Shown: in pieces, positions 2,773-62,185 of the stretch
Layout: the number at the start of each line of letters is the position of its first letter
Position numbering within the stretch: the first letter of the stretch is position 1
NCBI GenBank assembly: GCA_026014805.1
Contig: JAOZHR010000022.1
Span: 1 to 64,000, forward strand
Direction: 5' to 3'
Source of the DNA: Candidatus Bathyarchaeota archaeon
GTDB taxonomy: Archaea > Thermoproteota > Bathyarchaeia > Bathyarchaeales > SOJC01
Length of the DNA: 64,000 nt
Made by a program: the position numbers and the translations under genes
Notes under the pieces: generated by a model
Database searches by the model: none
Told to the model about the DNA's origin: nothing
What the model saw: the letters and a program-made list of their open reading frames with translations, nothing else

Positions 2773-4206
2773 ATGAAACCAATGCTCATCCCAAAGGAAA
2801 TCCGTGAAAAAACAAAATACTGCTATGAGTGCGGCATTTGCACCGCAAGCTGTCCCATGGCAGAACTTCTGTCAACGCATTACAACCCTAGGAGTCTTTT
2901 GCAAAAAGTTCTTACAGAACCCGAAAAGACTTTGAACGAAAATAGGCTTTGGCTGTGCGCGTGGTGCTACAAATGCTACAAACGATGCCCCCAAGGATTA
3001 AAACCGCCAGAAATATTCCAAATTCTAAAAAGTGAAGCCGCAAAACGTGGACTTTCTAGTGGTTTCGAAGAGGCGGTTGCAATAATAGAAGAAAATGTGC
3101 CTTTTCCGGTTATCTGCTGGTACACTTGTTTTCACCCTGAACGTGCAGAAGTGGGTGATGAAAAGATAACTGAGGCTTTGGAAAAATTAGCCGCGCAGCG
3201 CATGCAATCAAAAAAGAAAGAAACAGCCACTGGTCACAAGGAGAAGATTGCAATCATCGGCTCAGGTCCTGCAGGACTTACAGCTGCTTGCGAACTAGTA
3301 GAAAAAGGATACTCGGCTACGATTTTTGAAGCTCTTCCAGAGGTTGGAGGTATGTTAAGGACAAGCGTGCCAGAGTACAGATTGCCCAGAAAGGCGCTAC
3401 AAAGTGAAATTCAATGTTTGAAAGATTTGGGCGTGGAAATAAGAACCAACACAAGGATTGGGAAAGACATTAGTTTTGATGAGCTTTGGCGAGATGGATA
3501 TAAAGCTGTGTTTGTTGGAGTTGGCGCCCATAAAAGTCGAAAATTGGGAATTGAAGGTGAAGAGCTGGAAGGAGTTATTGACGCTTTGGGCTTTCTTTGG
3601 AAAGTAAACATGCAACAAAAAGTCAGCCTTGGAAAAAAAGTAGGAGTAATCGGCGGTGGAAACGTTGCCGTCGACGCCGCTAGAACCGCACTTCGCCAAG
3701 GAGCCAAAGAAGTTGTTATTCTTTACAGAAGGTCACGAGAGGAGATGCCAGCTAACCCTTGGGGAGTTATGGAAGCAGAAAAGGAAAGTGTGAAAATCGA
3801 ATTTTTAGTGGCACCCCAAAGAATTCTAAAAAAAGAAGGAAGGGCTGAGGGATTGGAGTGTATTAAAATGAAGTTGGGAGAACTGGATGAAACTGGCAGA
3901 AAAAAACCAATGCCAATTGAAGGCTCCGAATTCTCTCTAGAGCTAGATACGATAATAGTTGCTATTGGAGAAACAACAGAAACTACTTTCTTGCCCAAAG
4001 AAGTAGAAGTGGACAGAGGCAACAGAATTCTAGTTAACCCGATTACCATGGAAACCAGCATGACGGGAGTTTTTGCAGGCGGAGACACGGTCACTGGACC
4101 AGCAACTGTGATAGAGGCTATCCTTGCTGGAAAACGAGCCGCATGTTCCATCAACCAATATCTAACGGAGATTAGGGAAAGGGAGGAAAGAAACCGTGGC
4201 GACTGA
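2773..4206 (+). CDS. HdrC-like ferredoxin fused to GltD/NfnB-like FAD-NAD(P)H oxidoreductase
   Basis: A 477-residue fusion. Residues about 15-80 hold two 4Fe-4S motifs (CYECGICTASCP and CAWCYKCYKRCP) arranged as in HdrC, the small heterodisulfide-reductase subunit. From about residue 155 the protein is a GltD-type flavoprotein: an FAD site (IIGSGPAGLTAACEL), EVGGMLRTSVPEYRLP, an NAD(P) Rossmann (VIGGGNVAVDAARTALR) and a final GVFAGGDTVTGPATVIEAI block. Such subunits (GltD, NfnB) pass electrons between NAD(P)H and iron-sulfur partners. The ATG at 2773 has GAGG about 5 bases upstream. The gene overlaps the HdrA fusion by 11 bases, implying a stable complex. Which of NADH or NADPH is used cannot be read here. 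Confidence 0.85.
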   Translation: MKPMLIPKEIREKTKYCYECGICTASCPMAELLSTHYNPRSLLQKVLTEPEKTLNENRLWLCAWCYKCYKRCPQGLKPPEIFQILKSEAAKRGLSSGFEEAVAIIEENVPFPVICWYTCFHPERAEVGDEKITEALEKLAAQRMQSKKKETATGHKEKIAIIGSGPAGLTAACELVEKGYSATIFEALPEVGGMLRTSVPEYRLPRKALQSEIQCLKDLGVEIRTNTRIGKDISFDELWRDGYKAVFVGVGAHKSRKLGIEGEELEGVIDALGFLWKVNMQQKVSLGKKVGVIGGGNVAVDAARTALRQGAKEVVILYRRSREEMPANPWGVMEAEKESVKIEFLVAPQRILKKEGRAEGLECIKMKLGELDETGRKKPMPIEGSEFSLELDTIIVAIGETTETTFLPKEVEVDRGNRILVNPITMETSMTGVFAGGDTVTGPATVIEAILAGKRAACSINQYLTEIREREERNRGD

Positions 4207-6604
4207 AAAGAAAGTTGAAGAAGAGCCGCGAATCGGCGTCTATGTGTGCCACTGCGGACTAAACATAGCGGGCACGGTGAACTGTGAAGAAGTGGCAAAG
4301 TTCGCTGCTACTCTTCCCAACGTAATTGTTGCAAAAGACAACCGATACGCATGTTCTGACCAAGGCCAAGAGCTTATCAAAAGTGACATCAAAGAGCACA
4401 ACCTTAACCGTGTAGTTGTTGCTTCTTGTTCTCCACGCCTCCACGAGCCCACTTTTAGAAAGGCGTGTGAAGAAGCTGGATTGAACAAATATCTTTTCGA
4501 AATGGCAAACATACGAGAGCATTGCAGCTGGGTACATCTTCACGATAAAGAAGCGGCTACAGAGAAGGCTAAGGACTTAGTTAGAGCGGCGGTGGCGAAG
4601 GTTGCTCTTCTTAAGCCAGCAATCGAAACCGAAGTTCCTATACTCAGAAAAGCGTTAGTAATTGGTGGTGGAGTGGCGGGAATTCAAGCGGCCTTAGACT
4701 TGGCTGATACGGGCTATAAAGTGTATTTAGTGGAAAGAGAGCCAAGCATCGGCGGAAGGATGGCGCAGATTGACAAAACTTTCCCCACGATGGACTGCTC
4801 AATCTGTATTCTTGCACCAAAAATGTCCGACGTAGGTCATCATTCCAATATCGAGTTATTAACAAACAGTGAGGTCCAAGAGGTTAAGGGATACATTGGA
4901 AACTTTAAAGTAAAAGTGCTGAAAAAGCCGAGATATGTAACGGACGATTGCAGCGCTTGCAACGATTGCTCAGAAGTATGTCCCATAACCGCGCCAAACG
5001 AATTTGACATAGGCTTAGCAACGAGGAAGGCAATTTATACACCCTTCGCTCAAGCGGTGCCATCTACCTACATAATTGACCGTGAAATATGCCTCAACAA
5101 AGAAGGAGTCATCCCGTGTGACAAGTGCATAAAAGCCTGCGAACGACTAGCCATAGACTTCGACATGAAACCAAAACCCTTGGAATTGGAAGTCGGTACA
5201 ATAATTGTGGCAACAGGCGCCGACGTATACGACCCTTCCTCACTGCTAAACTACGGATACACTCATTACCCGAACGTACTAACCTCACTCGAATTTGAAA
5301 GACTAATCAACGCGGGAGGGCCTTCTGGAGGAAACCTTATTCGCCCAAGTGACATGAAAATTCCCGAATCGGTTGCCTTCATCCAATGCGTAGGCTCACG
5401 GTCTAAAAAAGGAAACTTCTATTGCAGCAACGTATGCTGCATGAACACGATAAAAGACAGCCTGCTAATCAAAGAACACTGGCCTGACGTTAAGATATAC
5501 GTTTTCTACGTGGACATAAGGGCTGTTGGAAAAGGTTTTGAAGATCTCTATAGAAGGGCGAAGGAAGAAGGTGTAATATTTATTCGAGGATTGCCAGCAG
5601 AAGTGATTGAAGACCGGAAAACTAACAACTTATGGCTAATTGGGGAAAATACACTCCAAAAAGAGCTGTACAAAGTCAAAACGGGCATGGTGATTCTTTC
5701 AGTCGGCATCGAACCCTGTCATGACAGCGATGTTATTCAACGCCTCTTCACGCTGTCTAGAACTCCTGACGGATTTTTCATGGAAGCTCACCCCAAACTC
5801 AAACCTGTAGACGCCCCCACTGGAGGAGTGTTCTTAGCAGGCTGCGCCGAATCTCCAAAGGACATAAAAGACAGCGTAACCCAAGCAAGCGCTGCAGCAG
5901 CACGCGCTGGCATCCTGATGGCGCAAGGAAAAGTAACTGTTGAAGCCATCACGCCCGAGCCTATTCCTGAAAACTGTACAGTCTGTGGACTATGCGCCCG
6001 AGTTTGCCCTTACAATGCGATTGTTGTGGACAAAGAGCACAAGCTGGTCGAGATTATTGAGGCTGCTTGTGCTGGATGCGGCACTTGTGGTGCCGAATGC
6101 CAATTTGAAGCCTTACACATGCGTCACTTCACGAACGCCCAAATCCTAGCTCAGATTGGTGCGTTGACGGAAGAGGATGCTGACAAGAAGATAATTGCGT
6201 TTTGTTGCAATTGGTGTGCTTACGCAGGGGCAGATTTCGCAGGCGTCAGTCGTATGCAGTATCCACCAAACGTACGTATAATTCGAACGATGTGTTCAGG
6301 AAGAGTGTCACCAAAGTTTGTTGAACACGCATTTGCCAGAGGTGCAGGGGCAGTGTTAGTCGCTGGGTGTCACCCAGGCGACTGCCACTACATCGACGCT
6401 AACTATCAAACGCAGAAAAGAATGGAGAGATTGTGGAAGAAAATGGAAAGACTGGGAGTTGACAAAGAGAGACTTCAGCTTCTGTGGGCTTCTGCTGCTG
6501 AAGGCGAGAGAGTCGCATCTAAGGTACGCGGAATGCAGGCAACATTGAATAAGCTAACGCCTAGGGAACTGGAAAATTCGAAGAAAGGCTTTGCAGGAAG
6601 CTAG
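4196..6604 (+). CDS. hdrA: HdrA-like flavoprotein fused to MvhD-type 2Fe-2S domain
   Basis: An 802-residue iron-sulfur flavoprotein. It opens with the HdrA N-terminal domain (VYVCHCG near residue 15), has an FAD Rossmann (VIGGGVAGIQAALDL, about 155-170), the HdrA segment PTMDCSICILAPKM, an inserted ferredoxin motif CSACNDCSEVCP (about 252-263), and two 4Fe-4S motifs at about 597-640 (CTVCGLCARVCP, CAGCGTCGAECQ). The last 140 residues are an MvhD domain with intact cysteines (FCCNWCAYAGAD, CSGR, AGCHPGDCHY). HdrA is the site of flavin-based electron bifurcation; MvhD normally delivers electrons from a hydrogenase or formate dehydrogenase. Start is GTG at 4196 with GGAGG before it. No hdrB or hydrogenase gene is adjacent. 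Confidence 0.92.
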   Translation: MATEKKVEEEPRIGVYVCHCGLNIAGTVNCEEVAKFAATLPNVIVAKDNRYACSDQGQELIKSDIKEHNLNRVVVASCSPRLHEPTFRKACEEAGLNKYLFEMANIREHCSWVHLHDKEAATEKAKDLVRAAVAKVALLKPAIETEVPILRKALVIGGGVAGIQAALDLADTGYKVYLVEREPSIGGRMAQIDKTFPTMDCSICILAPKMSDVGHHSNIELLTNSEVQEVKGYIGNFKVKVLKKPRYVTDDCSACNDCSEVCPITAPNEFDIGLATRKAIYTPFAQAVPSTYIIDREICLNKEGVIPCDKCIKACERLAIDFDMKPKPLELEVGTIIVATGADVYDPSSLLNYGYTHYPNVLTSLEFERLINAGGPSGGNLIRPSDMKIPESVAFIQCVGSRSKKGNFYCSNVCCMNTIKDSLLIKEHWPDVKIYVFYVDIRAVGKGFEDLYRRAKEEGVIFIRGLPAEVIEDRKTNNLWLIGENTLQKELYKVKTGMVILSVGIEPCHDSDVIQRLFTLSRTPDGFFMEAHPKLKPVDAPTGGVFLAGCAESPKDIKDSVTQASAAAARAGILMAQGKVTVEAITPEPIPENCTVCGLCARVCPYNAIVVDKEHKLVEIIEAACAGCGTCGAECQFEALHMRHFTNAQILAQIGALTEEDADKKIIAFCCNWCAYAGADFAGVSRMQYPPNVRIIRTMCSGRVSPKFVEHAFARGAGAVLVAGCHPGDCHYIDANYQTQKRMERLWKKMERLGVDKERLQLLWASAAEGERVASKVRGMQATLNKLTPRELENSKKGFAGS

Positions 6605-6605
6605 G

Positions 6606-6914
6606 GTGGGATTGGTTGTGCCTCAAAAACTGTGGAGAAAACCTTTAGACACTGAAAAAATCAAGCTTCCCAAGGCAGAAATCCACATCATAAAGGATTT
6701 CTGTAAAGGCTGTGACTTCTGCATCGAATTCTGCCCAAAGAATGTATTAGAAAAATCTGACAAGATTAACAAGAGGGGAGCATACCTGCCAAAAGTGGTG
6801 GATGAGAATAAATGTGTCCTTTGTGGCTTTTGCATGGCCATCTGTCCCGAGTTTGCCATTTTTACCATTGAAAAGAAATGTAAGGAAGGTTGTGAGAATG
6901 GAGAAAAAGAATAG
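6606..6914 (+). CDS. korD: 2-oxoacid:ferredoxin oxidoreductase delta subunit (2x[4Fe-4S] ferredoxin)
   Basis: About 102 residues with two ferredoxin motifs, CKGCDFCIEFCP and CVLCGFCMAICP, as in KorD/PorD, the subunit carrying electrons from the thiamine-diphosphate site to ferredoxin. I place the start at GTG 6606 because AGGAAG lies 5 bases upstream; a TTG at 6591 and a GTG at 6618 are in frame alternatives. The Cys-rich tail KKCKEGCENGEKE is extra. It sits between the HdrA fusion and korA (overlapping korA by 17 bases), the normal place for korD in an archaeal korDABC set. Confidence 0.9.
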   Translation: MGLVVPQKLWRKPLDTEKIKLPKAEIHIIKDFCKGCDFCIEFCPKNVLEKSDKINKRGAYLPKVVDENKCVLCGFCMAICPEFAIFTIEKKCKEGCENGEKE

Positions 6915-8055
6915 AGCGGTTCTTACAGGAACGCATTTCATGAGCGGAGATCTGGCATGCGCCGAAGGAGCAATTGCCGCTGGATGCCGATTCTTTGGCG
7001 GCTACCCCATCACTCCCGCCACTGAGATTGCTGAGCGAATGGCTAGACGAATGCCCGAAATTGGCGGTGTTTACATTCAAATGGAAGACGAAATCGGCTC
7101 CATTGCCGCTATCATTGGGGCCTCTTACGCTGGTAAGAAAGCCATGACTGCAACGTCGGGTCCAGGATTCAGCTTAATGCAGGAAAACATAGGATTAGCT
7201 GTCATGACTGAAGCACCTCTTGTTATCGTAGACATAATGCGTGGTGGTCCCAGCACCGGCCAGCCAACCATGCCTGGGCAACAAGATATGATGCAGGCGA
7301 AGTGGGGGTCCCACGGAGACTACGAAATTATCGCGCTGGCTCCTGCATCTGTTCAAGAGATGTTCGATTTAACAATAGAATGCTTCAACCTCGCCGAAAC
7401 CTATCGTGTTCCAGTCATGTTGCTAGCTGACGAGATTATTGGTCACATGTGGGAGCGAGTCAAGATTCCACCCCCCGAAGAAATTGTTCTTGTCAGTCGC
7501 AAAAAACCCAAAGTGCCGCCGAATGAATACCACCCCTTCAAACCGGACGGAAACCTAGTTCCTCCCATGGCTTGCTTCGGAGAAGGCTACCGCTTCCACG
7601 CCACCGGCTTAACACACGACGAAAAAGGTGCACCCAAAACGGTAAGCATCGAAGAGCAGACCAAACTTGTCAAAAGGCTGTGCGACAAGATACGCAAGAA
7701 TGCTGGAAAAATAATCAAAGCTGAAGAAGTAATGTTGGAGGACGCTGAGGTGGCAGTTATTGCTTACGGCATTACTTCCCGCGCAGCTTTAAGTGCAGTG
7801 CGAAAGGCCAGAAAGGAGGGGATAAAAGCGGGGCTGCTTCGTCTAATCACCATTTGGCCCTTCCCAGAAGAACTAGTTGCTGGAATTGCTAAACAGGTTA
7901 ACGTCATAATTGTTCCTGAAATGAATTATGGACAGCTAGTTCGAGAAGTTGAAAGAATGGCAAAGACGACTCCAGTCTTTCTCTTTTCAAAACTTGGTGA
8001 AGAACCCCATCGACCTTCAGAAATTATAGAAGCTATGAGGAGGGCTCTGAAATGA
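6898..8055 (+). CDS. korA: 2-oxoacid:ferredoxin oxidoreductase alpha subunit
   Basis: A 385-residue alpha subunit of a CoA-acylating 2-oxoacid:ferredoxin oxidoreductase (2-oxoglutarate type most likely). It contains the pyrimidine-binding core FFGGYPITPATEIAE, ATSGPGFSLMQENIGLA and MRGGPSTGQPTMPGQQD, then the transketolase C-terminal region (VIAYGITSRAALSAV). The GGPSTG motif and separate alpha/beta/gamma/delta chains are typical of KorA. The ATG at 6898 is preferred over more distant in-frame codons because AAGGAAGG precedes it and the conserved sequence starts soon after. It overlaps korB by an ATGA junction. Substrate (2-oxoglutarate versus a branched-chain or aryl 2-oxoacid) cannot be fixed from sequence alone. 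Confidence 0.93.
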   Translation: MEKKNRAVLTGTHFMSGDLACAEGAIAAGCRFFGGYPITPATEIAERMARRMPEIGGVYIQMEDEIGSIAAIIGASYAGKKAMTATSGPGFSLMQENIGLAVMTEAPLVIVDIMRGGPSTGQPTMPGQQDMMQAKWGSHGDYEIIALAPASVQEMFDLTIECFNLAETYRVPVMLLADEIIGHMWERVKIPPPEEIVLVSRKKPKVPPNEYHPFKPDGNLVPPMACFGEGYRFHATGLTHDEKGAPKTVSIEEQTKLVKRLCDKIRKNAGKIIKAEEVMLEDAEVAVIAYGITSRAALSAVRKARKEGIKAGLLRLITIWPFPEELVAGIAKQVNVIIVPEMNYGQLVREVERMAKTTPVFLFSKLGEEPHRPSEIIEAMRRALK

Positions 8056-8921
8056 CCGAGTCAAACTTGATGTTAGAGCATCCCTTGGCAAAATATTTGA
8101 GACAGGAAAGGATGCCACACATTTGGTGCGAAGGCTGTGGAAACGGCGTTCTGCTGAGCAGCTTCTTTGAGGCTCTCGACGAACTTAAGCTGAACTTGGA
8201 CAAGTTAGTTGTCGTTTCAGGAATCGGATGCATCGGTCGCGCAGCTGGCTATGTCAACGTTGACTCGTTCCACACAACGCACGGTAGAGCCATAGCCTTT
8301 GCTACAGGAGTGAAGCTTGCCAATCCAGACTTAAAAGTCGTAGTAATCAGTGGCGACGGCGATCTCTTCGCTATCGGCGGAAATCACTTCATCCACGCTG
8401 CCCGTAGAAACGTGGATATCAAAGTTATCTGCGCCAACAACTTCAACTACGGAATGACTGGCGGCCAGTATGGTCCAACTACACCCTTAGACTCATGGAC
8501 CACAACTACTCCTTACGGAAACATTGAACATCCCTTCAACCTAGTTCATCTAGCTGCAGCATCTGGTGCCGTGTACGTTGCCCGATGGACAACGCTTCAA
8601 GTGAGAAGACTAAGAAACTCGATAGAAAAGGCGCTGCAAAAGGAAGGCTTCTCCTTCATTGAAGTCATATCGCCGTGCCCAGAGATTTATGACCGCTACA
8701 ACAAGCTTGGAACAGCCATTGACGTAATGAAACGGTTTAAGCTGGTGTCCGAAGTTCGGCATGGTTACGATCCTGCAAAAGCAGAAATAACAAAAGACCA
8801 AATCATAGTGGGCGAGTTTATCGATATTGAAAAGCCAAGTTATGGCAGGTTATTCCGAGAAATGACTGCTAAGGTGCAGAAAAAACTCAAAGGAGGAAAA
8901 GCCAAATGCGAACGGAAATAA
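8052..8921 (+). CDS. korB: 2-oxoacid:ferredoxin oxidoreductase beta subunit (thiamine-diphosphate binding)
   Basis: A 289-residue beta subunit. The N-terminal WCEGCGNGVLLSSF motif, SGIGCIGRAAGY, and the thiamine-diphosphate/Mg motif GDGDLFAIGGNHFIHAARR ending in NNFNYGMTGGQ are all present. These bind the cofactor that decarboxylates the 2-oxoacid and forms acyl-CoA while reducing ferredoxin. PYGNIEHPFNL and the conserved CPEIYDRYN segment fit KorB better than PorB. Start ATG 8052 overlaps the korA stop; the 3' end overlaps korC by 16 bases, indicating tight translational coupling. Confidence 0.94.
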   Translation: MTESNLMLEHPLAKYLRQERMPHIWCEGCGNGVLLSSFFEALDELKLNLDKLVVVSGIGCIGRAAGYVNVDSFHTTHGRAIAFATGVKLANPDLKVVVISGDGDLFAIGGNHFIHAARRNVDIKVICANNFNYGMTGGQYGPTTPLDSWTTTTPYGNIEHPFNLVHLAAASGAVYVARWTTLQVRRLRNSIEKALQKEGFSFIEVISPCPEIYDRYNKLGTAIDVMKRFKLVSEVRHGYDPAKAEITKDQIIVGEFIDIEKPSYGRLFREMTAKVQKKLKGGKAKCERK

Positions 8922-9466
8922 GGTTTGCAGGTTTCGGAGGACAAGGCATCATCCGTTCAGGCTTGATACTGTCCATGGCAGCCTGCATTTACAGCGATAA
9001 AAACGCAGTGCAAACTCAATCCTATGGACCAGAGTCAAGAGGCGGCAGCTGCAAATCCGAAGTGGTCATAGCAGATGAAGAGATAGACTTTCCAAAAGTA
9101 GACAACCCAGATATAGTAGTGATAATGTCACAGGAAGCCTACCACAAATACGTCAGCACCGCAAAGAAAGGTGCAACAATCCTTGTTGACCCTAACAGAG
9201 TAACAGATAGAAGCGACCCAGCAAACACAAAAATATATGACATACCGGCAACGAAATTCGCAGAAGAAATGGGTAAAACAATAGTAGCAAACGTGGTTAT
9301 GCTAGGCGCTCTAACAGCCATCACAAACACAGTCACGCCGGAAGCCATGAAAAAAGCTGTTTTACGGAATGTTCCAAAAGGGACTGAAGAACTGAATATG
9401 ACGGCCTTTGAAAAAGGCTATGGCTATGGCAAACAACTTCTAAAAAGCCAAGGCAACAGCGAGTAA
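8906..9466 (+). CDS. korC: 2-oxoacid:ferredoxin oxidoreductase gamma subunit
   Basis: A 186-residue gamma subunit with the family opening IRFAGFGGQGIIRSGLIL, QTQSYGPESRGGSCKSEVVI and the VVIMSQEAY segment. The gamma chain contributes to CoA binding and subunit assembly. AAAGGAGG lies about 8 bases before the ATG at 8906. It closes the HdrC-GltD / HdrA-MvhD / KorDABC operon; 54 bases of spacer precede the next cistron, whose product is unrelated. Confidence 0.94.
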   Translation: MRTEIRFAGFGGQGIIRSGLILSMAACIYSDKNAVQTQSYGPESRGGSCKSEVVIADEEIDFPKVDNPDIVVIMSQEAYHKYVSTAKKGATILVDPNRVTDRSDPANTKIYDIPATKFAEEMGKTIVANVVMLGALTAITNTVTPEAMKKAVLRNVPKGTEELNMTAFEKGYGYGKQLLKSQGNSE

Positions 9467-55078: not shown

Positions 55079-55093
55079 TTGGAGGAAAACCAT

Positions 55094-55975
55094 TTGAGTT
55101 TAGAACAAACAGTAGAAAACGTAGCAGTTAACCTGTTACGCTTTGCAGTTACAGAATTACCAAAAGATGTTAAAGAAGCCCTCCAAAAAGCTTACCAAGA
55201 AGAAACAAGTGAAGCGGGGAAAACACAACTCAAAGCCATCCTTGACAATGTTGCGTTAGCCCAAAGAACCCGCACCCCCATGTGCCAAGACACCGGCACA
55301 ATAATCTTCTATATCAAAGCCGGAGCAGAAGTCAAAAATCTAGACAAGATTGAAAACGCTTTACGCAACGCCACCAAAAGAGCCACAAACGAAGTGCCCT
55401 TGAGACCAAATGCTGTAGACCCATTCAAACAGAAAAACACAGGCAACAACACAGGTAGAAACATCCCCTACATAAACTGGGAAATAGTGCCCGGCAACAC
55501 CCTTGAAATCACTGTGCTACCGAAAGGCGGTGGCTCAGAAAACGTCTGCGTTACTACTATGCTAGTACCTGGAGAAGGTATCAAAGGGCTAAAGAAATTT
55601 GTCATAGACTCCGTAATCAAAGCAGGCTCAAAACCGTGCCCCCCAAACATTTTAGGCGTGGCAATTGGAGGAGGAACAGATATCTCCATGAAACTGGCAA
55701 AAAAAGCGTTACTACGCCCCCTTAACCACCCCAACTCAGACCCCGAAATAGCCAAACTTGAAAAAGAACTACTGGAAGCCGCAAACCAAACAGGTATAGG
55801 ACCCATGGGATTAGGCGGCAAGTTCACCGTCCTAAGTGTAAACATAGACTACGCTGCAAGGCACCCCGCATCCTATCCAGCGGCAGTAGCCTTCAACTGC
55901 TGGGCGGCAAGAAGGGCAACAGCACGCATTCATCCAGGTGGGCGTGTTGAATACTTAACGCATGAAATGAGGTGA
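55094..55975 (+). CDS. Class I fumarate hydratase, alpha subunit
   Basis: A 293-residue 4Fe-4S fumarase/tartrate-dehydratase alpha chain. PMCQDTGTIIFYIKAG holds a cluster Cys; NTGRNIPYINWEIVPGN, GGSENVC and PPNILGVAIGGGTDISM (Cys in KPCPPN) give the other two. It hydrates fumarate to malate together with the beta chain 7 bases downstream. Start is TTG 55094, 8 bases after GGAGG; an in-frame TTG at 55079 lies before that SD and is rejected. Two-subunit fumarases are usual in anaerobic archaea. Confidence 0.93.
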   Translation: MSLEQTVENVAVNLLRFAVTELPKDVKEALQKAYQEETSEAGKTQLKAILDNVALAQRTRTPMCQDTGTIIFYIKAGAEVKNLDKIENALRNATKRATNEVPLRPNAVDPFKQKNTGNNTGRNIPYINWEIVPGNTLEITVLPKGGGSENVCVTTMLVPGEGIKGLKKFVIDSVIKAGSKPCPPNILGVAIGGGTDISMKLAKKALLRPLNHPNSDPEIAKLEKELLEAANQTGIGPMGLGGKFTVLSVNIDYAARHPASYPAAVAFNCWAARRATARIHPGGRVEYLTHEMR

Positions 55976-55982
55976 AAAAGAA

Positions 55983-56588
55983 TTGGCAACATACAAATTA
56001 ACCACCCCAATCTCCGAAGAACATGTGCGAAAATTGAAAGTCAACGATGTTGTATACATCACAGGAACTATAGTGACAGCCCGCGACCAAGCTCATAAAA
56101 GAGCCCTGCAATTTCATAAAGAAGGAAAACAACTCCCAATCAACTTAGAAGGTTTGGCAGTTTTTCACTGCGGTCCCATAGTCAAAAAGGAAGGAGACAA
56201 ATGGAACATAGTGGCAGCTGGCCCCACAACTAGCACACGAATGGACATTTTCGAAGATGAATTCATCAAGAACTTCAAAACCCGCGTCATCATTGGTAAA
56301 GGAGGCATGGGTAAACGCACCACCGACGCCATGCAGAAATACGGTGCCATCTATGGAGCCTTCACGGGCGGAGCCGCAGTCCTCGCCGCAAAAGCAATAA
56401 AAAAAATCAAAAATGTCGAATGGATCGACCTGGGCATGCCCGAAGCCCTATGGATATTAAAGACTGAAGAATTTGGTCCCCTAACAGTCGCGATAGACTC
56501 TCACGGAAACAATCTCTTCGAAGATGTTAAAAAGAAAACAGAAGAAAATCGAACAGTTATCTACCAAAAACTCGGCATTCAGCCATAG
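55983..56588 (+). CDS. Class I fumarate hydratase, beta subunit
   Basis: A 201-residue beta chain. It has the family blocks YITGTIVTARDQAHKRA, FHCGPIVK, AAGPTTSTRMDIFEDEFI, IIGKGGMG and YGAIYGAFTGGAAVLAA. The start is TTG 55983 with GAGGTG about 8 bases upstream. The pair forms a reversible fumarase feeding the reductive or oxidative C4 branch around 2-oxoglutarate. Confidence 0.94.
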   Translation: MATYKLTTPISEEHVRKLKVNDVVYITGTIVTARDQAHKRALQFHKEGKQLPINLEGLAVFHCGPIVKKEGDKWNIVAAGPTTSTRMDIFEDEFIKNFKTRVIIGKGGMGKRTTDAMQKYGAIYGAFTGGAAVLAAKAIKKIKNVEWIDLGMPEALWILKTEEFGPLTVAIDSHGNNLFEDVKKKTEENRTVIYQKLGIQP

Positions 56589-56828: not shown

Positions 56829-57938
56829 TTATATGGCTTGCGAAAGTAGCTCTGCTATGTCTAGGACTTGAATTTTTCCTTCCAAGCCTGTTGTTTTAAC
56901 GGCATCCTCGAAGGTTAGGAGACAGAAGGGACACGCAACAACTAATATCTCTGCTCCCGAGTCGGCTGCGTCCTTGACGCGGATTTCGGCGAGACGTTCT
57001 CCAGGAATGTCTATCCACATTCTTCCTCCGCCGCCTTCGCAACACAAGCTTCGCTCCCTAGAACGATCGAACTCTACAAGTTTTACGCCTGGAATGTTTT
57101 CGATAGCTCTTCTGGGCTCGTCGTATATGCCATTCTGTTTTCCTAGGAAGCAGGGATCGTGATAGATGACTGTTTTGTTTATCTCTCGTGAAAATGTGAG
57201 ATTACCTTTGCTGATTAAGTCTGCAAGTAACTGTGTGTGATGCAAAACCTCGAAGCTTGTTTGTCCATATCTGTTTTTGAAGGCGTTGTATGAGTGGGGA
57301 CAGCTTGTGACAAGATGCTTTACATCATACTTGTTGAATAGCTTAACGTTTTCTTCTATTAGAAGTTCGAATAGGCCTTTTTCACCCATACCATAAACTT
57401 CGCTTCCACAGCAGTTTTCTTCGTCTCCTAATGTTCCAAAGTTGACTCCTGCTTTTTCGAAGCACTTCACCAAGCTTGTCGCCACCTCTTGAACTCGAGG
57501 ATCATAAGCCGGTGTGCAACCTACAAAATAAAGAAACTCTGCATCTTGCGAGACGTGTTTAATGTCTAGTTCTTGTGCCCACTCCGACCTTTTGCTTCTT
57601 ATTCTTGCCCACGGATTACCATTCTTAAAAGTGCTCTCTAACGCATCACGGAGTGTTGTAGCGATTTGTCCTTGTTCTACCGCAAGGCTTCTGATGTCAA
57701 TTAGAAAGTCGTAGGGATTTATTTCCTTTGGACAGCGAATTCCACATGTAGCGCAGGTTGTACAGCTCCATAACTCGTTTTGGGAGTGTATGGTTAGCTT
57801 GCCACCTACAGAAACTTCCCGCATGTACTTTCTAACGTTTAAATTAGCCTTTCTGGACACTGGGCAACTTCCGGTACATATTCCGCAGTGAATACATTCA
57901 AGCAACTTATGTTTTTGAACGAGTTCCTGCACATTCAT
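56829..57938 (-). CDS. HdrD-like (HdrC-HdrB fusion) heterodisulfide reductase subunit
   Basis: A 369-residue iron-sulfur protein. The N-terminus has the two HdrC-type 4Fe-4S motifs CIHCGICTGSCP and CTTCATCGIRCP; the C-terminal part has two CCG domains (GDEENCCGSEVYGMG and RSLCCEGGGGRMW, each preceded by a conserved Cys as in VGCTPAYDP and HDPCFLG), which bind the non-cubane 4Fe-4S clusters that act on disulfides. ATG 57938; the longer frame is not conserved. It diverges from the HdrA-Etf operon and probably is its electron-accepting partner, on a CoM-S-S-CoB-like or other thiol substrate. Confidence 0.9.
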   Translation of the reverse strand: MNVQELVQKHKLLECIHCGICTGSCPVSRKANLNVRKYMREVSVGGKLTIHSQNELWSCTTCATCGIRCPKEINPYDFLIDIRSLAVEQGQIATTLRDALESTFKNGNPWARIRSKRSEWAQELDIKHVSQDAEFLYFVGCTPAYDPRVQEVATSLVKCFEKAGVNFGTLGDEENCCGSEVYGMGEKGLFELLIEENVKLFNKYDVKHLVTSCPHSYNAFKNRYGQTSFEVLHHTQLLADLISKGNLTFSREINKTVIYHDPCFLGKQNGIYDEPRRAIENIPGVKLVEFDRSRERSLCCEGGGGRMWIDIPGERLAEIRVKDAADSGAEILVVACPFCLLTFEDAVKTTGLEGKIQVLDIAELLSQAI

Positions 57939-58033: not shown

Positions 58034-60397
58034 ATGGAGAAGGCGCCAACGAGAATAGGGATTTACGTTTGCGAGTGCGGTGGAAACATAGGGGACGTTG
58101 TGGATGTAAAAGCTGTCTTAGAAGCAGTTAAGAATTGGGAAGGAGTTGTCGTCACAAAATACCAAAAATATCTTTGTTCAAAGCCATCCCAAGAAGTAAT
58201 AGCTGAAGCTATAAAAAAGAAAGACTTGGACCGAGTTGTAATCGCCAGCTGCACTCCAAGAATGCACCTTGCAACCTTTCAAAGCGTACTCGAGCGAGCT
58301 GGATTAAACCCTTACATGCTTGAATTCGTAAACATCCGAGAACAAGCCTCGTGGGTTCATGGTCCACAATCCTCTACGGCAGCCACAAAAAAAGCTATAA
58401 GCCTAATAAGGGGTGGCTATGAGCGAAGCATAGAACTTGAACCTTTAGAGAGCATAAGTGAAAAATGTTCAAGAGAAATTCTAGTAGTTGGTGGTGGGAT
58501 AGCTGGCATTACTGCGGCTCTGGAACTTGGCTATTTGGGTTTTAAGGTTCATGTTGTGGAAAGGAAACCAAGCATAGGCGGGAACATGGCTAAATTAACC
58601 AAAGTTTTCCCCACGTTAGACTGTGCCCAGTGTATACTCACGCCGAGAATGGCTGAGGTTGGGCGAAACCGAAACGTGAATTTGCTTACTTACGCTGAAG
58701 TACGTGGTATAAGCGGACGCCCAGGCAACTATGAAGTGGAAGTTTTCATGAAGCCTCGCGGCGTGGATACTGAGACTTGTAGAAGTTGTGGTGTATGCGC
58801 TAAAGTTTGCCCAGTTACGGTGCCCGATGAGTTCAACGAAGGCATATCTCAGAGAAAGGCGGTGTACGTAGAGTTCCCTCAAGCAGTGCCCTCAGTTTAT
58901 GTGATAGACTTTGGTGCGTGCACGAAATGCTCAAAATGTGAGCAGCTTTGTCCAGCCAAAGCCATAAACTTGGAAGACAAGGGAAAAACAATTAGGCTGA
59001 AAGTGGGCGCCATAATTATGGCCACTGGCTACGAGCTTTATGACGCGAACATGCTTAAGAACTATGGATATAGCGTTTACAAAGATGTTATCAGTATGAT
59101 GGATCTGGAACGGTTAACTTCTGCATCTGGACCGACAGGGGGTTATGTGAAAAGGGCGGATGGCGACGACGTTAAAAGGATAGCGATTGTACTTTGTGCG
59201 GGCTCCAGAGATAAGAACCACATTTCATATTGCAGCCGGATATGCTGCATGTACGCATTAAAGCAAGCTTTCGTGCTTAGGAAAATGCTTGGAATCGATG
59301 TTCATGTTTATTATATTGACATTAGAGCTACTGGTAAGGGTTATGAAGAGCTTTATTGGCGAGATGAGGAAGCTGGAGTTATCTTTACTAAAGGTAGAGT
59401 GGCTGAAATCTGGAAGAGCAAAAATGACAAACTAGTTGTTTTAACGGAGGATACTTTAATGGGTGAGGTTATGGAAAGAGAGTTCGACATGGTTGCTTTA
59501 GCTACGCCCATGGTTCCACCTGCGGGACTTGGAGAGCTCGCTGGCAAAATGAAACTTTCCTTAGGAGAAAAAGGTTTCATACAAGAAAAACACCCAAAGC
59601 TCGACCCCGTAGACTCACTTAAAACTGGGATTTTTGCATGTGGATGCGCCCTAAGCCCGAAAGACGTTCGCGACACGGTTTCCGACGCATTAGCAGCATC
59701 TGCCAAGGCTTCTCTTTTCCTGAAAGGAGAACGCATAACGACAAGTCCAGAGAAGGCCTTTGTAGTTGCAGCCTTATGTGATGGCTGTGGTCTTTGCATT
59801 CAAGTTTGTCCAGTCAACGCTATAACCATGGAAGCCAAAAAAGCCAAGATTAACCCGTTCATGTGTACTGGCTGCGGGGCATGCATTCCCGTTTGCCCGA
59901 AGGGAGCTATAGACTTTAAAAATTCAACAAATAGGCAGATCATAGCTAATCTACGGGGAGTTCTCATGGACAAGGAGCCTAACGAGGTTAGGATTGTTGC
60001 TTTTGTAGACAAGAATGTTGGATATACCGGCATGGACTTTCTGGGTCTTGACCGTGTCAACTATCCCGAAAACGTTCGAATATTGGCGGTTCCTTCTACC
60101 GCTATCTTAGGTTTAAAACATTTGCTTTATACCTTTGCCTTAGGAGCAGATGGAATATTGGTGATTGAGGGACAAGAAGACATCGATGAGCATTTTACCA
60201 AAAAGAGGATGATTGAAATGAACCGTTCCCTTGCAGAGTTTGACATAAAAGGCATGAGAGTCCGCTACAGCTATGTCCCCCTACCAGTATACAAGAAGGC
60301 TGCAGACTTGTTCACAAGGTTTTCCGAAAGAATTAAGAAATTCGGGCCCTTCTCCATGAAGAAACGTAATAAGCTCAAAGAGAAGCTAGGCATCTAG
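58034..60397 (+). CDS. hdrA: HdrA-like flavoprotein with a cysteine-free MvhD-like tail
   Basis: A 787-residue HdrA. It has the N-terminal VYVCECGGN-like segment (IYVCECGGNIG), FAD motif VVGGGIAGITAALELGYL, PTLDCAQCILTPRM, inserted ferredoxin motifs CRSCGVCAKVCP and CTKCSKCEQLCP, and two C-terminal 4Fe-4S motifs CDGCGLCIQVCP and CTGCGACIPVCP. The last 140 residues still align with MvhD (VRIVAFVDKNVGYTGMD, VNYPENVRILAVPS) but every 2Fe-2S Cys is replaced. It is followed by etfB and etfA, so electrons probably enter from the flavoprotein Etf. ATG 58034, with the HdrD-like gene divergent. Confidence 0.92.
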   Translation: MEKAPTRIGIYVCECGGNIGDVVDVKAVLEAVKNWEGVVVTKYQKYLCSKPSQEVIAEAIKKKDLDRVVIASCTPRMHLATFQSVLERAGLNPYMLEFVNIREQASWVHGPQSSTAATKKAISLIRGGYERSIELEPLESISEKCSREILVVGGGIAGITAALELGYLGFKVHVVERKPSIGGNMAKLTKVFPTLDCAQCILTPRMAEVGRNRNVNLLTYAEVRGISGRPGNYEVEVFMKPRGVDTETCRSCGVCAKVCPVTVPDEFNEGISQRKAVYVEFPQAVPSVYVIDFGACTKCSKCEQLCPAKAINLEDKGKTIRLKVGAIIMATGYELYDANMLKNYGYSVYKDVISMMDLERLTSASGPTGGYVKRADGDDVKRIAIVLCAGSRDKNHISYCSRICCMYALKQAFVLRKMLGIDVHVYYIDIRATGKGYEELYWRDEEAGVIFTKGRVAEIWKSKNDKLVVLTEDTLMGEVMEREFDMVALATPMVPPAGLGELAGKMKLSLGEKGFIQEKHPKLDPVDSLKTGIFACGCALSPKDVRDTVSDALAASAKASLFLKGERITTSPEKAFVVAALCDGCGLCIQVCPVNAITMEAKKAKINPFMCTGCGACIPVCPKGAIDFKNSTNRQIIANLRGVLMDKEPNEVRIVAFVDKNVGYTGMDFLGLDRVNYPENVRILAVPSTAILGLKHLLYTFALGADGILVIEGQEDIDEHFTKKRMIEMNRSLAEFDIKGMRVRYSYVPLPVYKKAADLFTRFSERIKKFGPFSMKKRNKLKEKLGI

Positions 60398-60412: not shown

Positions 60413-61201
60413 ATGGATATAATCGTTTGTGTGAAACACGTTCCTGAAACGGCGGAAGCAGAGATAAAAATAGACTCTGCAGGAAAATCCATAGAAAAAA
60501 GTGGTTTAGTTTTTGACATTAATGAATGGGATGATTACGCTCTAGAGGAAGCAGTGCAAGTAAAAGAAAGAATCGGAGGAACTGTCACCGCCATAACAGT
60601 GGGTTCTGAGGACGCTGACAGCACTTTAAGAAAGTGTCTAGCCCGAGGAGCAGACAAGGCTGTAAGGCTTACCGACCCGAAGTTCGAAGGCTCTGACGGC
60701 TACGCCATCGCCAAAATCCTCTATAAGACCATTAAGGACTTGCCTTTCAACATGATATTTACGGGGGCACAAGCAGGTGACGATGGCTATGCAATAGTGG
60801 GGCCAATACTTGCAGAACTTCTCGGAATCCCCCACGCCACTATGGTTAAGAAAATCGAATTGAACAGTGACGTCGCCAAGGTTAACCGTGAATTGGAAGG
60901 TGGCTTGGAAGAAATTATCGAAATAAGGCTACCAGCTGTGCTTACAATCCAAACAGGAATTAATGAACCTCGCTATGTCTCCATTATGGGAATAAGAAAA
61001 GCAATGCAGAAGGAGATAAAAGTCTTCAGCTTGGCTGAAGTTGGCCTAAGCGAAAATGAGGTTGGGGAAGCTGGTTCATGGACAAAAATAGAAAATATGT
61101 ACGTGCCACCTGTAGAGAAACAAGCAGAATTCCTAAAAGGGAGTCCAGAAGAAGTTGCTGCGAGAATCGCCGAAATCCTAAAAGCAAGGGGGTTAGTATA
61201 A
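60413..61201 (+). CDS. etfB: Electron transfer flavoprotein beta subunit
   Basis: A 262-residue EtfB. DIIVCVKHVPETAEAEI, NEWDDYALEEAVQVKE, ITVGSEDADSTLRKCLARGADKA and FTGAQAGDDGYAIVGPILAE are the conserved blocks. It binds AMP or a second FAD; bifurcating Etf types use the latter, and I cannot tell from sequence alone. It starts 15 bases after hdrA and the etfA ATG follows its stop directly. Confidence 0.94.
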   Translation: MDIIVCVKHVPETAEAEIKIDSAGKSIEKSGLVFDINEWDDYALEEAVQVKERIGGTVTAITVGSEDADSTLRKCLARGADKAVRLTDPKFEGSDGYAIAKILYKTIKDLPFNMIFTGAQAGDDGYAIVGPILAELLGIPHATMVKKIELNSDVAKVNRELEGGLEEIIEIRLPAVLTIQTGINEPRYVSIMGIRKAMQKEIKVFSLAEVGLSENEVGEAGSWTKIENMYVPPVEKQAEFLKGSPEEVAARIAEILKARGLV

Positions 61202-62185
61202 ATGAAAGAAATTTTTGTTCTAAGCGAACACAGGCAAGGACAGATCAGAGACATAACCTTTGAAATGTTAGCCAAAGGTAAGGAATTGGCTGAGAAAACA
61301 AACACAGAACTAACAGTAGTGCTATTCGGGAAAGATGTCAAAGAACAAGCAAAAACTCTTTCAGAATACGCAAAAAAGGTTCTGTTGGTTGAAGATGCAA
61401 AGTTGGAGAATTTTAACTCAGAAACCTATCAGAAAATACTATCCAATTTAATAAGAGAACGCAAGCCATTATTAACCTTAATTGGGCACACCTCTTTTGG
61501 TATGGATTTGGCGCCATGCCTCGCTGTTTCGTTGGATGTACCCTTAGCAACGGACTGCATAGACCTAAGATTTAAAAATGGGACATTAACTGTGACACGT
61601 CAGATGTATGGTGGCAAAGTAAACGTCAATGCAGTGCTTCGTAAAGCAGAAAATTACATCGTGACTGTTCGACAAGCATCTTTCCCAGCTGGAAAGAAGA
61701 CTTCTACAAATGGAGAAATTATTGAAATTCCTTCTCCTATTTCCGAGGAAACAGCGGAAAAACGCTTTATCAAATACGTTTTGCCTCCTCCCGGCGGCGT
61801 AGATATAACAGCTGCGGATGTGCTCGTAGGAATTGGGCGCGGGATAAAAGACGAAAGTGATATTCCTCCAATAGAAGAACTGGCAACAACCCTTGGAGCT
61901 GTATTAGCCTGTTCACGTCCCATCGTAGATAAAGGATGGCTTCCTAACGACCGCCAAATAGGCAGTTCTGGAAAGACCGTTAAACCGAAACTTTACATAG
62001 CCCTCGGAATAAGCGGTGCCTTCCAACATGTCCTCGGGATGAAGAACTCGGATCTAATCATCGCAATAAACAAGGATCCACACGCACCTATATTCAGTGT
62101 AGCTGACTATGGTATCGTGGAAGACCTCTTCAAAATAGTTCCGCCCCTAAAAAGCAAAGTAAATGAACTAAAAGGAAAAAGGTAA
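61202..62185 (+). CDS. etfA: Electron transfer flavoprotein alpha subunit
   Basis: A 327-residue EtfA. The FAD domain has VGIGRGIKDESD, ACSRPIVDKGWLPNDRQIGSSG, LYIALGISGAFQHVLGM and IIAINKDPHAPIFSVADYGIV. The Etf pair takes electrons from acyl-CoA dehydrogenases or lactate-type dehydrogenases, so the neighbouring HdrA could be coupled to oxidation of an acyl-CoA or hydroxyacid. The etfA ATG follows etfB stop without a gap. Extra ferredoxin domain is absent. Confidence 0.95.
   Translation: MKEIFVLSEHRQGQIRDITFEMLAKGKELAEKTNTELTVVLFGKDVKEQAKTLSEYAKKVLLVEDAKLENFNSETYQKILSNLIRERKPLLTLIGHTSFGMDLAPCLAVSLDVPLATDCIDLRFKNGTLTVTRQMYGGKVNVNAVLRKAENYIVTVRQASFPAGKKTSTNGEIIEIPSPISEETAEKRFIKYVLPPPGGVDITAADVLVGIGRGIKDESDIPPIEELATTLGAVLACSRPIVDKGWLPNDRQIGSSGKTVKPKLYIALGISGAFQHVLGMKNSDLIIAINKDPHAPIFSVADYGIVEDLFKIVPPLKSKVNELKGKR

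Follow-up and report, generated by a model that had tools for sequence, protein, structure and literature searches.

Organization of the locus and the core of HdrA

The window, that is, the whole 64,000-nucleotide stretch of DNA analysed here, belongs to a MAG of 1.79 Mb from the class Bathyarchaeia. The genes and features considered in this work are the following:

55079-56588, forward strand: fumarate hydratase subunit genes (55079-55975 and 55983-56588), named from sequence
56829-57938, reverse strand: hdrD, soluble EtfD/TfrB-like protein of 369 aa (profile matches, alignments)
58034-60397, forward strand: hdrA of the Etf/HdrD-linked subclade, 787 aa (ORF list, profile matches, predicted model)
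58622-58624, forward strand: codon of C197, equivalent of Cys197 in known HdrA (alignment)
59108-59110, forward strand: codon of E359, counterpart of E356 of the bifurcating FAD site (position and motif)
59261-59263, forward strand: codon of K410, counterpart of K409, which stabilises FADH- (position and motif)
59777-59896, forward strand: intact C-terminal ferredoxin of HdrA, with C582, C585, C588, C592, C611, C614, C617 and C621 (alignment)
59981-60394, forward strand: Cys-free FlpD/MvhD tail of HdrA, residues 650-787 (profile match, alignments)
60413-61201, forward strand: etfB, 262 aa, 15 bp after hdrA (ORF list, profile match)
61202-62185, forward strand: etfA, 327 aa, beginning right after etfB, without an N-terminal ferredoxin domain (ORF list, profile match)

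The HdrA encoded at 58034-60397 (P0001) consists of an N-terminal Fe-S domain, a thioredoxin-reductase-like FAD domain, an inserted ferredoxin, a C-terminal 2x[4Fe-4S] ferredoxin and the Cys-free MvhD tail, and its predicted model resembles solved HdrA chains in a structure comparison. The NCBIfam HdrA2 profile (NF040770) spans residues 7-773 with 837.6 bits, below the curated cut-off of 1100, while the other HdrA considered from this window, encoded at 4196 (P0002), passes it with 1264.5 bits. According to the alignment, P0001 retains the N-terminal cluster ligands C13, C15, C48 and C73, the cross-protomer C197, which in HdrA completes the N-terminal cluster in the partner protomer (PMC9012536), and all the cysteines of the inserted and C-terminal ferredoxins, the latter being the port that adjoins MvhD in known complexes. 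It also carries the two residues with a role at the bifurcating FAD of HdrA, K409, which stabilises FADH-, and E356 (PMC12054007); their counterparts K410 and E359, equated by position and motif and not by structure, are found in 77/77 and 76/77 proteins of the Cys-free clade described below. P0001 resembles the type Ia HdrA2 of the M. acetivorans HdrA2B2C2 complex in the order of its domains, in its FAD residues and in the Fe-S ligands of the core, and it has the same C-terminal MvhD fusion, but its tail lacks the ligands for a working [2Fe-2S] cluster and its partners are HdrD and EtfAB instead of HdrB2C2. The tandem HdrA pairs found at L095, L138, L141 and L143 raised the idea of a heterodimer of P0001 and a canonical HdrA, but P0001 needs no such partner, as it keeps both C197 and the N-terminal cluster ligands.

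Other HdrA loci were noted in the same genome. P0002 itself (4196-6604) is part of another unusual module (2773-9466) in which it is preceded by an HdrC-GltD-like fusion (2773-4206) and followed by ferredoxin and 2-oxoacid:ferredoxin oxidoreductase-like genes (6591-9466). On contig C22 near 82.5 kb (L097:12478), an HdrA with a fused tail of altered cysteine motif (CCSEC, PCTG, CKSDGC) adjoins HdrBC and a [NiFe]-hydrogenase-like gene.

A conserved MvhD-fold tail without cluster ligands

The preliminary description of this locus had identified the C-terminus of P0001 as an MvhD-like domain devoid of cluster cysteines and had contrasted it with that of P0002, and both observations hold. Residues 654-771 match the full length of Pfam FlpD/MvhD (PF02662; 73.3 bits against a cut-off of 22.3, E=2.3e-20), and the tail alone matched six MvhD chains among solved sequences (E=4e-9 to 1e-6). 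In the alignment the tail of P0001 has 0/5 cluster cysteines and that of P0002 5/5. The latter lie in FCCNWC, MCSGR and GCHPGDC, where P0001 has D659 and V662 in place of the CNWC cysteines, S688 in place of that of CSGR, and G713 and D718 in place of those of CHPGDC, and the same replacements are seen against the stand-alone, Cys-intact MvhD proteins that its own genome also encodes. As all five cysteines are replaced, the tail cannot bind a [2Fe-2S] cluster or relay electrons through it, in contrast to the MvhD/FlpD subunits (5ODC_D and relatives) whose profile it matches over the full length. Published accounts describe type Ia HdrA, with MvhD fused, as bearing one [2Fe-2S] cluster (PMC5296606, PMC12054007).

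The same description had considered the tail a docking or structural relic. A structural or docking role is retained here as the simplest proposal, but selection, conservation and a confidently predicted fold all contradict the word relic. Between the window gene and its close orthologs the tail has a dN/dS of about 0.03-0.10, the same as in the rest of the protein; more than 40 tail positions are at least 90% conserved in the Etf-linked subclade, several of them newly acquired relative to MvhD; and E712, P687 and H696 are conserved across the Cys-free clade, E712 being present in 76/77 rows at a position that is Gly in nearly all Cys-intact tails. Furthermore, an AlphaFold2 model of the HdrA built from 58 sequences has a mean pLDDT of 90.6, with most blocks of the tail at 86-96 and one loop at 71. 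A sequencing error or a pseudogene is ruled out by the low dN/dS together with the recovery of 81 Cys-free sequences.

These sequences come from 136 non-redundant HdrA proteins collected in class-wide and GTDB-wide searches, in which none of the five tail cysteines is present in 81, two in 7 and four or five in 13, the remaining 35 being tail-less; as the sample was seeded with the window protein, the Cys-free fraction is not a population frequency. In a tree of the HdrA core, built with the tail left out, 77 rows, all of them Cys-free, form a single branch (SH-aLRT 99), most of them coming from Bathyarchaeia and others from Nezhaarchaeota and two Asgard lineages, and the 41 rows of the Etf subclade are nested within it (SH-aLRT 100). 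By parsimony, this nesting makes the loss of the cysteines older than the link to Etf. All these data show that the tail is a conserved MvhD-fold domain whose [2Fe-2S] ligands had already gone in the common ancestor of a large group of HdrAs.

Outside this clade, the SdhAB-linked HdrAs from Thermoplasmata, WOR-3 and KSB1 retain two tail cysteines or none, and they may derive from the same loss event: a single loss shared with the main clade is not rejected by the AU test (p=0.51), so that a separate second loss in the Thermoplasmata/WOR-3 group is unforced. In contrast, the Cloacimonadota HdrA L143 represents a forced separate loss (p=1e-5 when all are placed together). Tails with exactly two of the five cysteines (ADDMCTY ... 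GECE), found at L138, L141, L145, L146, L152, L174 and L095, are possible intermediates of cysteine loss, and some of these HdrAs adjoin a second, canonical HdrA plus MvhD. With respect to the FAD domain, C404 (YCSRICC) is replaced by Gly in 20 of the 36 Cys-free-clade proteins outside the Etf subclade (e.g. L069-L071, L079-L092).

Gene neighbourhoods, HdrD and EtfAB

An adjacent Etf pair had also been reported for this locus and is indeed present, etfBA lying directly after hdrA, but the check that it suggested, whether Cys-free tails always accompany etfAB, gave a negative answer. Within six genes of the HdrA, EtfB is found in 27/41 rows of the Etf subclade and HdrD in 38/41, while the remaining 36 of the 77 Cys-free rows have no EtfB in that range (0/36). 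These other HdrAs adjoin HdrBC, succinate-dehydrogenase-like or formate-dehydrogenase-like genes, with HdrB nearby in 27, an SdhA/TfrA-like gene in 13 and malic enzyme in 10. At L059-L068, L072, L074 and L076 a Cys-free-tail HdrA is clustered with genes for SdhA/TfrA-like and SdhB-like proteins, HdrBC, malic enzyme and fumarase, which would fit a soluble complex of HdrABC with a fumarate reductase.

The reverse combination also occurs. The locus represented by L136 and L181 (the same locus by gene content) encodes EtfB, EtfA and HdrD that are, in L136, 74%, 69% and 77% identical to those of the window, next to a tail-less HdrA of 670 aa followed by a separate, Cys-intact MvhD; the more distant L214 has a similar arrangement, and the WOR-3 bacterium L137 has EtfB-EtfA-HdrA-MvhD, again with intact cysteines. 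The preliminary description had singled out EtfAB-linked HdrAs with intact MvhD cysteines as the cases that would count against its reading; L136/L181 and L137 are of this kind as far as the cysteines are concerned, although MvhD is there a separate protein. As the same kind of EtfAB-HdrD accompanies both types of HdrA, the cysteine loss is not explained by EtfAB. In an Asgard Borrarchaeum, HdrA, EtfBA and an acyl-CoA dehydrogenase (ACAD) are together, and the HdrD ortholog (55-57%) is elsewhere and not adjacent; in loci of the window type, where HdrD is divergently oriented, it is hdrA that adjoins etfB more often than HdrD does.

Co-occurrence was assessed across the 257 genomes of the class, using cut-offs near 52-58% identity in tables compiled by hand and bearing in mind that the genomes are not independent. 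The HdrD type is present in 69 genomes and the EtfB type in 69, with both in 64 (44/45 by genus). The Etf-linked HdrA is present in 49 genomes, accompanied by HdrD in 49/49 and by EtfB in 46/49, and all 33 genera of the class that have it also have this EtfB type. In G167 (L053), a 95% complete genome, HdrA and HdrD of this type are found and the matching EtfB is absent. About ten genomes that lack this HdrA still have HdrD-EtfB-EtfA side by side, often with an acyl-CoA dehydrogenase. HdrD is a steadier partner of EtfAB than HdrA is.

The HdrD of the window contains an HdrC-type 2x[4Fe-4S] domain and two CCG domains, of which the second is complete and the first lacks its last Cys (CPHS) while carrying an EtfD-type His; it therefore does not have the two complete CCG motifs of catalytic HdrB/HdrD. 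The first domain ends in CPH[GSA], with the last Cys gone, in most of the 55 HdrD compared (the window protein and 54 relatives), whereas the second CCG is complete in all of them; a His at the position of EtfD His583, within a [CS]PH motif, is present in 55/55 and absent from the listed HdrB motifs. The closest solved match is mycobacterial EtfD (9OJN; E=1e-54), HdrB chains giving 5e-7 or worse, and HdrD aligns to residues 406-743 of 9ojn_A, which form its Fe-S and CCG part and include the His that ligates cluster D2. In EtfD, the bridging cysteine is replaced by His583, which renders the CCG cluster non-catalytic, and relatives of EtfD without the first cluster are thought to accept ETF electrons at the second one (PMC13083937). 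The window HdrD is thus homologous to the Fe-S/CCG part of EtfD/EMO, the HdrD-like ETF:menaquinone oxidoreductase, and its type resembles EtfD/EMO in co-occurring with EtfAB and ACAD, but the 369-aa protein lacks the membrane domain with heme b, sits with HdrA and is missing one Cys of the first CCG. As TfrB-like proteins share the CPH His in 8/9 cases, this residue alone is no proof of ETF binding.

Regarding the Etf pair, a β-FAD motif DGDTAQVGP and an NAD motif RxFxG mark bifurcating EtfB (PMC9232219). The window EtfB reads DDGYAIVGP and PKFEG, without the Arg, so that both motifs are missing and an identity as NADH-bifurcating ETF was discarded; the more distant EtfB of L215 reads DGDTGQVGP. 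Away from HdrA, EtfBA heads a β-oxidation operon in several genomes (EtfBA-ACAD-hydroxyacyl-CoA DH-ACAD-enoyl-CoA hydratase-thiolase), and our search of the own genome yielded five ACAD matches and no Mcr. The fumarate hydratase genes adjoin hdrD in the window and in relatives, in several of which a TfrA/SdhA-like plus TfrB-like pair lies between them. An Nfn-like module (NfnA-like, GltD-like, thioredoxin-reductase-like) is found beside about 11 HdrD-HdrA loci and is absent at most EtfAB-adjacent ones, the window included. It contains a 402-aa protein with two repeats of an 8Fe-ferredoxin plus an MvhD-like domain whose cysteines are largely retained (L049:10824-12032, and likewise in L048, L051, L107, L111, L114, L116-L118, L121, L123 and L127).

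A possible route for Etf electrons and its alternatives

The preliminary description had Etf supplying electrons in place of MvhD. The loss of the [2Fe-2S] relay, the adjacency of etfBA and the co-occurrence in 33 genera agree with a role of Etf, but the cysteines were lost before the Etf link, and the EtfD-like CCG protein HdrD is a better-supported entry point for Etf electrons than the tail. Our best model is a soluble complex that would bifurcate or confurcate electrons along a route from acyl-CoA dehydrogenase through EtfAB, the EtfD-like HdrD and the HdrA FAD to ferredoxin. By analogy with HdrCB, HdrD could be seated on HdrA in a soluble complex, and from known Hdr and Etf biochemistry it would exchange single electrons with EtfAB, which would serve acyl-CoA dehydrogenases, ETF occupying the place of the heterodisulfide in HdrABC. 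The FAD of HdrA would couple this ETF/acyl-CoA side to ferredoxin, and the tail, packed by the intact C-terminal ferredoxin domain, would act as a cluster-free structural or docking domain instead of an electron relay. A third, mid-potential partner may react directly at the HdrA FAD or, in some genomes, may enter via the Nfn-like module with its Cys-intact MvhD-like domains. Textbook potentials are about -10 mV for enoyl-CoA, -320 to -340 mV for NAD(P)H or F420H2 and -500 mV for ferredoxin; with these values a mid-potential donor would bifurcate its electrons downhill, to ferredoxin and enoyl-CoA, whereas for acyl-CoA to be oxidised the electrons would have to confurcate into an acceptor more positive than about -255 mV, and the complex may work in one direction or the other. 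Taken as a whole, the combination of a Cys-free tail as scaffold and the ACAD-EtfAB-HdrD-HdrA-ferredoxin route has, in our judgement, an even chance of being correct.

Alternatively, EtfAB could dock on the Cys-free tail and take over the input role of MvhD, its FAD passing electrons to the clusters of the C-terminal ferredoxin of HdrA. The 15 bp spacing in the window, the etfBA genes following hdrA in many relatives, the intact C-terminal ferredoxin and the HdrA-EtfBA-ACAD cluster that Borrarchaeum keeps without an adjacent HdrD are all in favour of this, but the earlier date of the cysteine loss, the 36 Cys-free HdrAs without EtfAB, the orthologous EtfAB-HdrD beside a tail-less HdrA with Cys-intact MvhD (L136/L181) and the closer association of EtfAB with HdrD than with HdrA make it unlikely. 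That the tail is a decaying, functionless remnant would fit the disappearance of every cluster ligand; however, a dN/dS equal to that of the core, the conserved and newly acquired positions and the well-defined fold of the predicted model render this extremely improbable.

The loss of the tail cluster could also mean that the mid-potential pair enters elsewhere, either as F420H2 or NAD(P)H at the HdrA FAD or through an MvhD-type protein in trans. In fact, F420H2 is oxidised by M. acetivorans HdrA2, for which no site binding it is known (PMC5296606, PMC12054007), the repeated ferredoxin-MvhD protein keeps its cysteines at the Nfn-containing loci, and the own genome has stand-alone MvhD genes, but the Nfn-like module is missing from most EtfAB-adjacent loci, and the idea is compatible with the scaffold and HdrD route and hence not a full alternative to it; on its own, we find it rather improbable. 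Finally, HdrD might be a true heterodisulfide reductase, the complex reducing a thiol carrier with Etf as donor, as its CCG domains and the TfrAB-like fumarate reductase genes at some of these loci could suggest. However, nearly all HdrD miss the last Cys of their first CCG, the second site has the EtfD-type His that makes it non-catalytic in EtfD (PMC13083937), and Mcr is lacking in the own genome, all of which makes this very unlikely.

Going back to the ACAD-EtfAB-HdrD-HdrA route, it shares with FlxABCD-HdrABC and MvhADG-HdrABC a bifurcation hub at the HdrA FAD to which different input and output modules can be attached, but where those systems use MvhD and HdrB disulfide chemistry it has EtfAB-HdrD and a Cys-free tail. 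Like Bcd-EtfAB, CarCDE and Ldh-EtfAB, it is predicted to couple ETF and acyl-CoA dehydrogenase to ferredoxin; unlike them, its EtfB lacks the β-FAD and NADH motifs, and the bifurcating flavin would be that of HdrA. The pairing of Etf with HdrD as such is already known, since hdrF3 adjoins etfBA in Db. autotrophicum (PMC2702500) and D. reducens has an HdrD-like gene within its butyrate/Etf cluster (PMC4759654); the new element is the addition to it of an HdrA with a Cys-free tail. A text search of the two papers on type Ia HdrA (PMC5296606, PMC12054007) found no mention of Etf, and no description of a Cys-free MvhD tail or of an Etf-HdrA gene cluster was found in the literature searched, in which few subscription journals are represented. 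We tentatively propose, with slightly less than even confidence, a new flavin-based complex of HdrA, EtfD-like HdrD and EtfAB in at least 33 Bathyarchaeia genera as well as in Nezhaarchaeota and Asgard, in which the HdrA flavin would bifurcate, ETF (enoyl-CoA/acyl-CoA) would replace the heterodisulfide and the Cys-free MvhD would be a scaffold.

Published schemes wire MvhD-fused HdrA through the [2Fe-2S] cluster, and a whole clade is described here that lacks the ligands of this cluster, so that electron-flow models assuming an MvhD input would be wrong for the Cys-free paralogs of Bathyarchaeia and their relatives. What the MvhD domain does can be tested directly with the natural series found here, which comprises separate Cys-intact MvhD, two-Cys tails and Cys-free tails, and EtfAB-HdrD loci with one HdrA type, the other or neither. 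Should it prove real, the HdrA-HdrD-EtfAB complex would explain how anaerobic archaea couple acyl-CoA and ferredoxin without an NADH-type bifurcating ETF.
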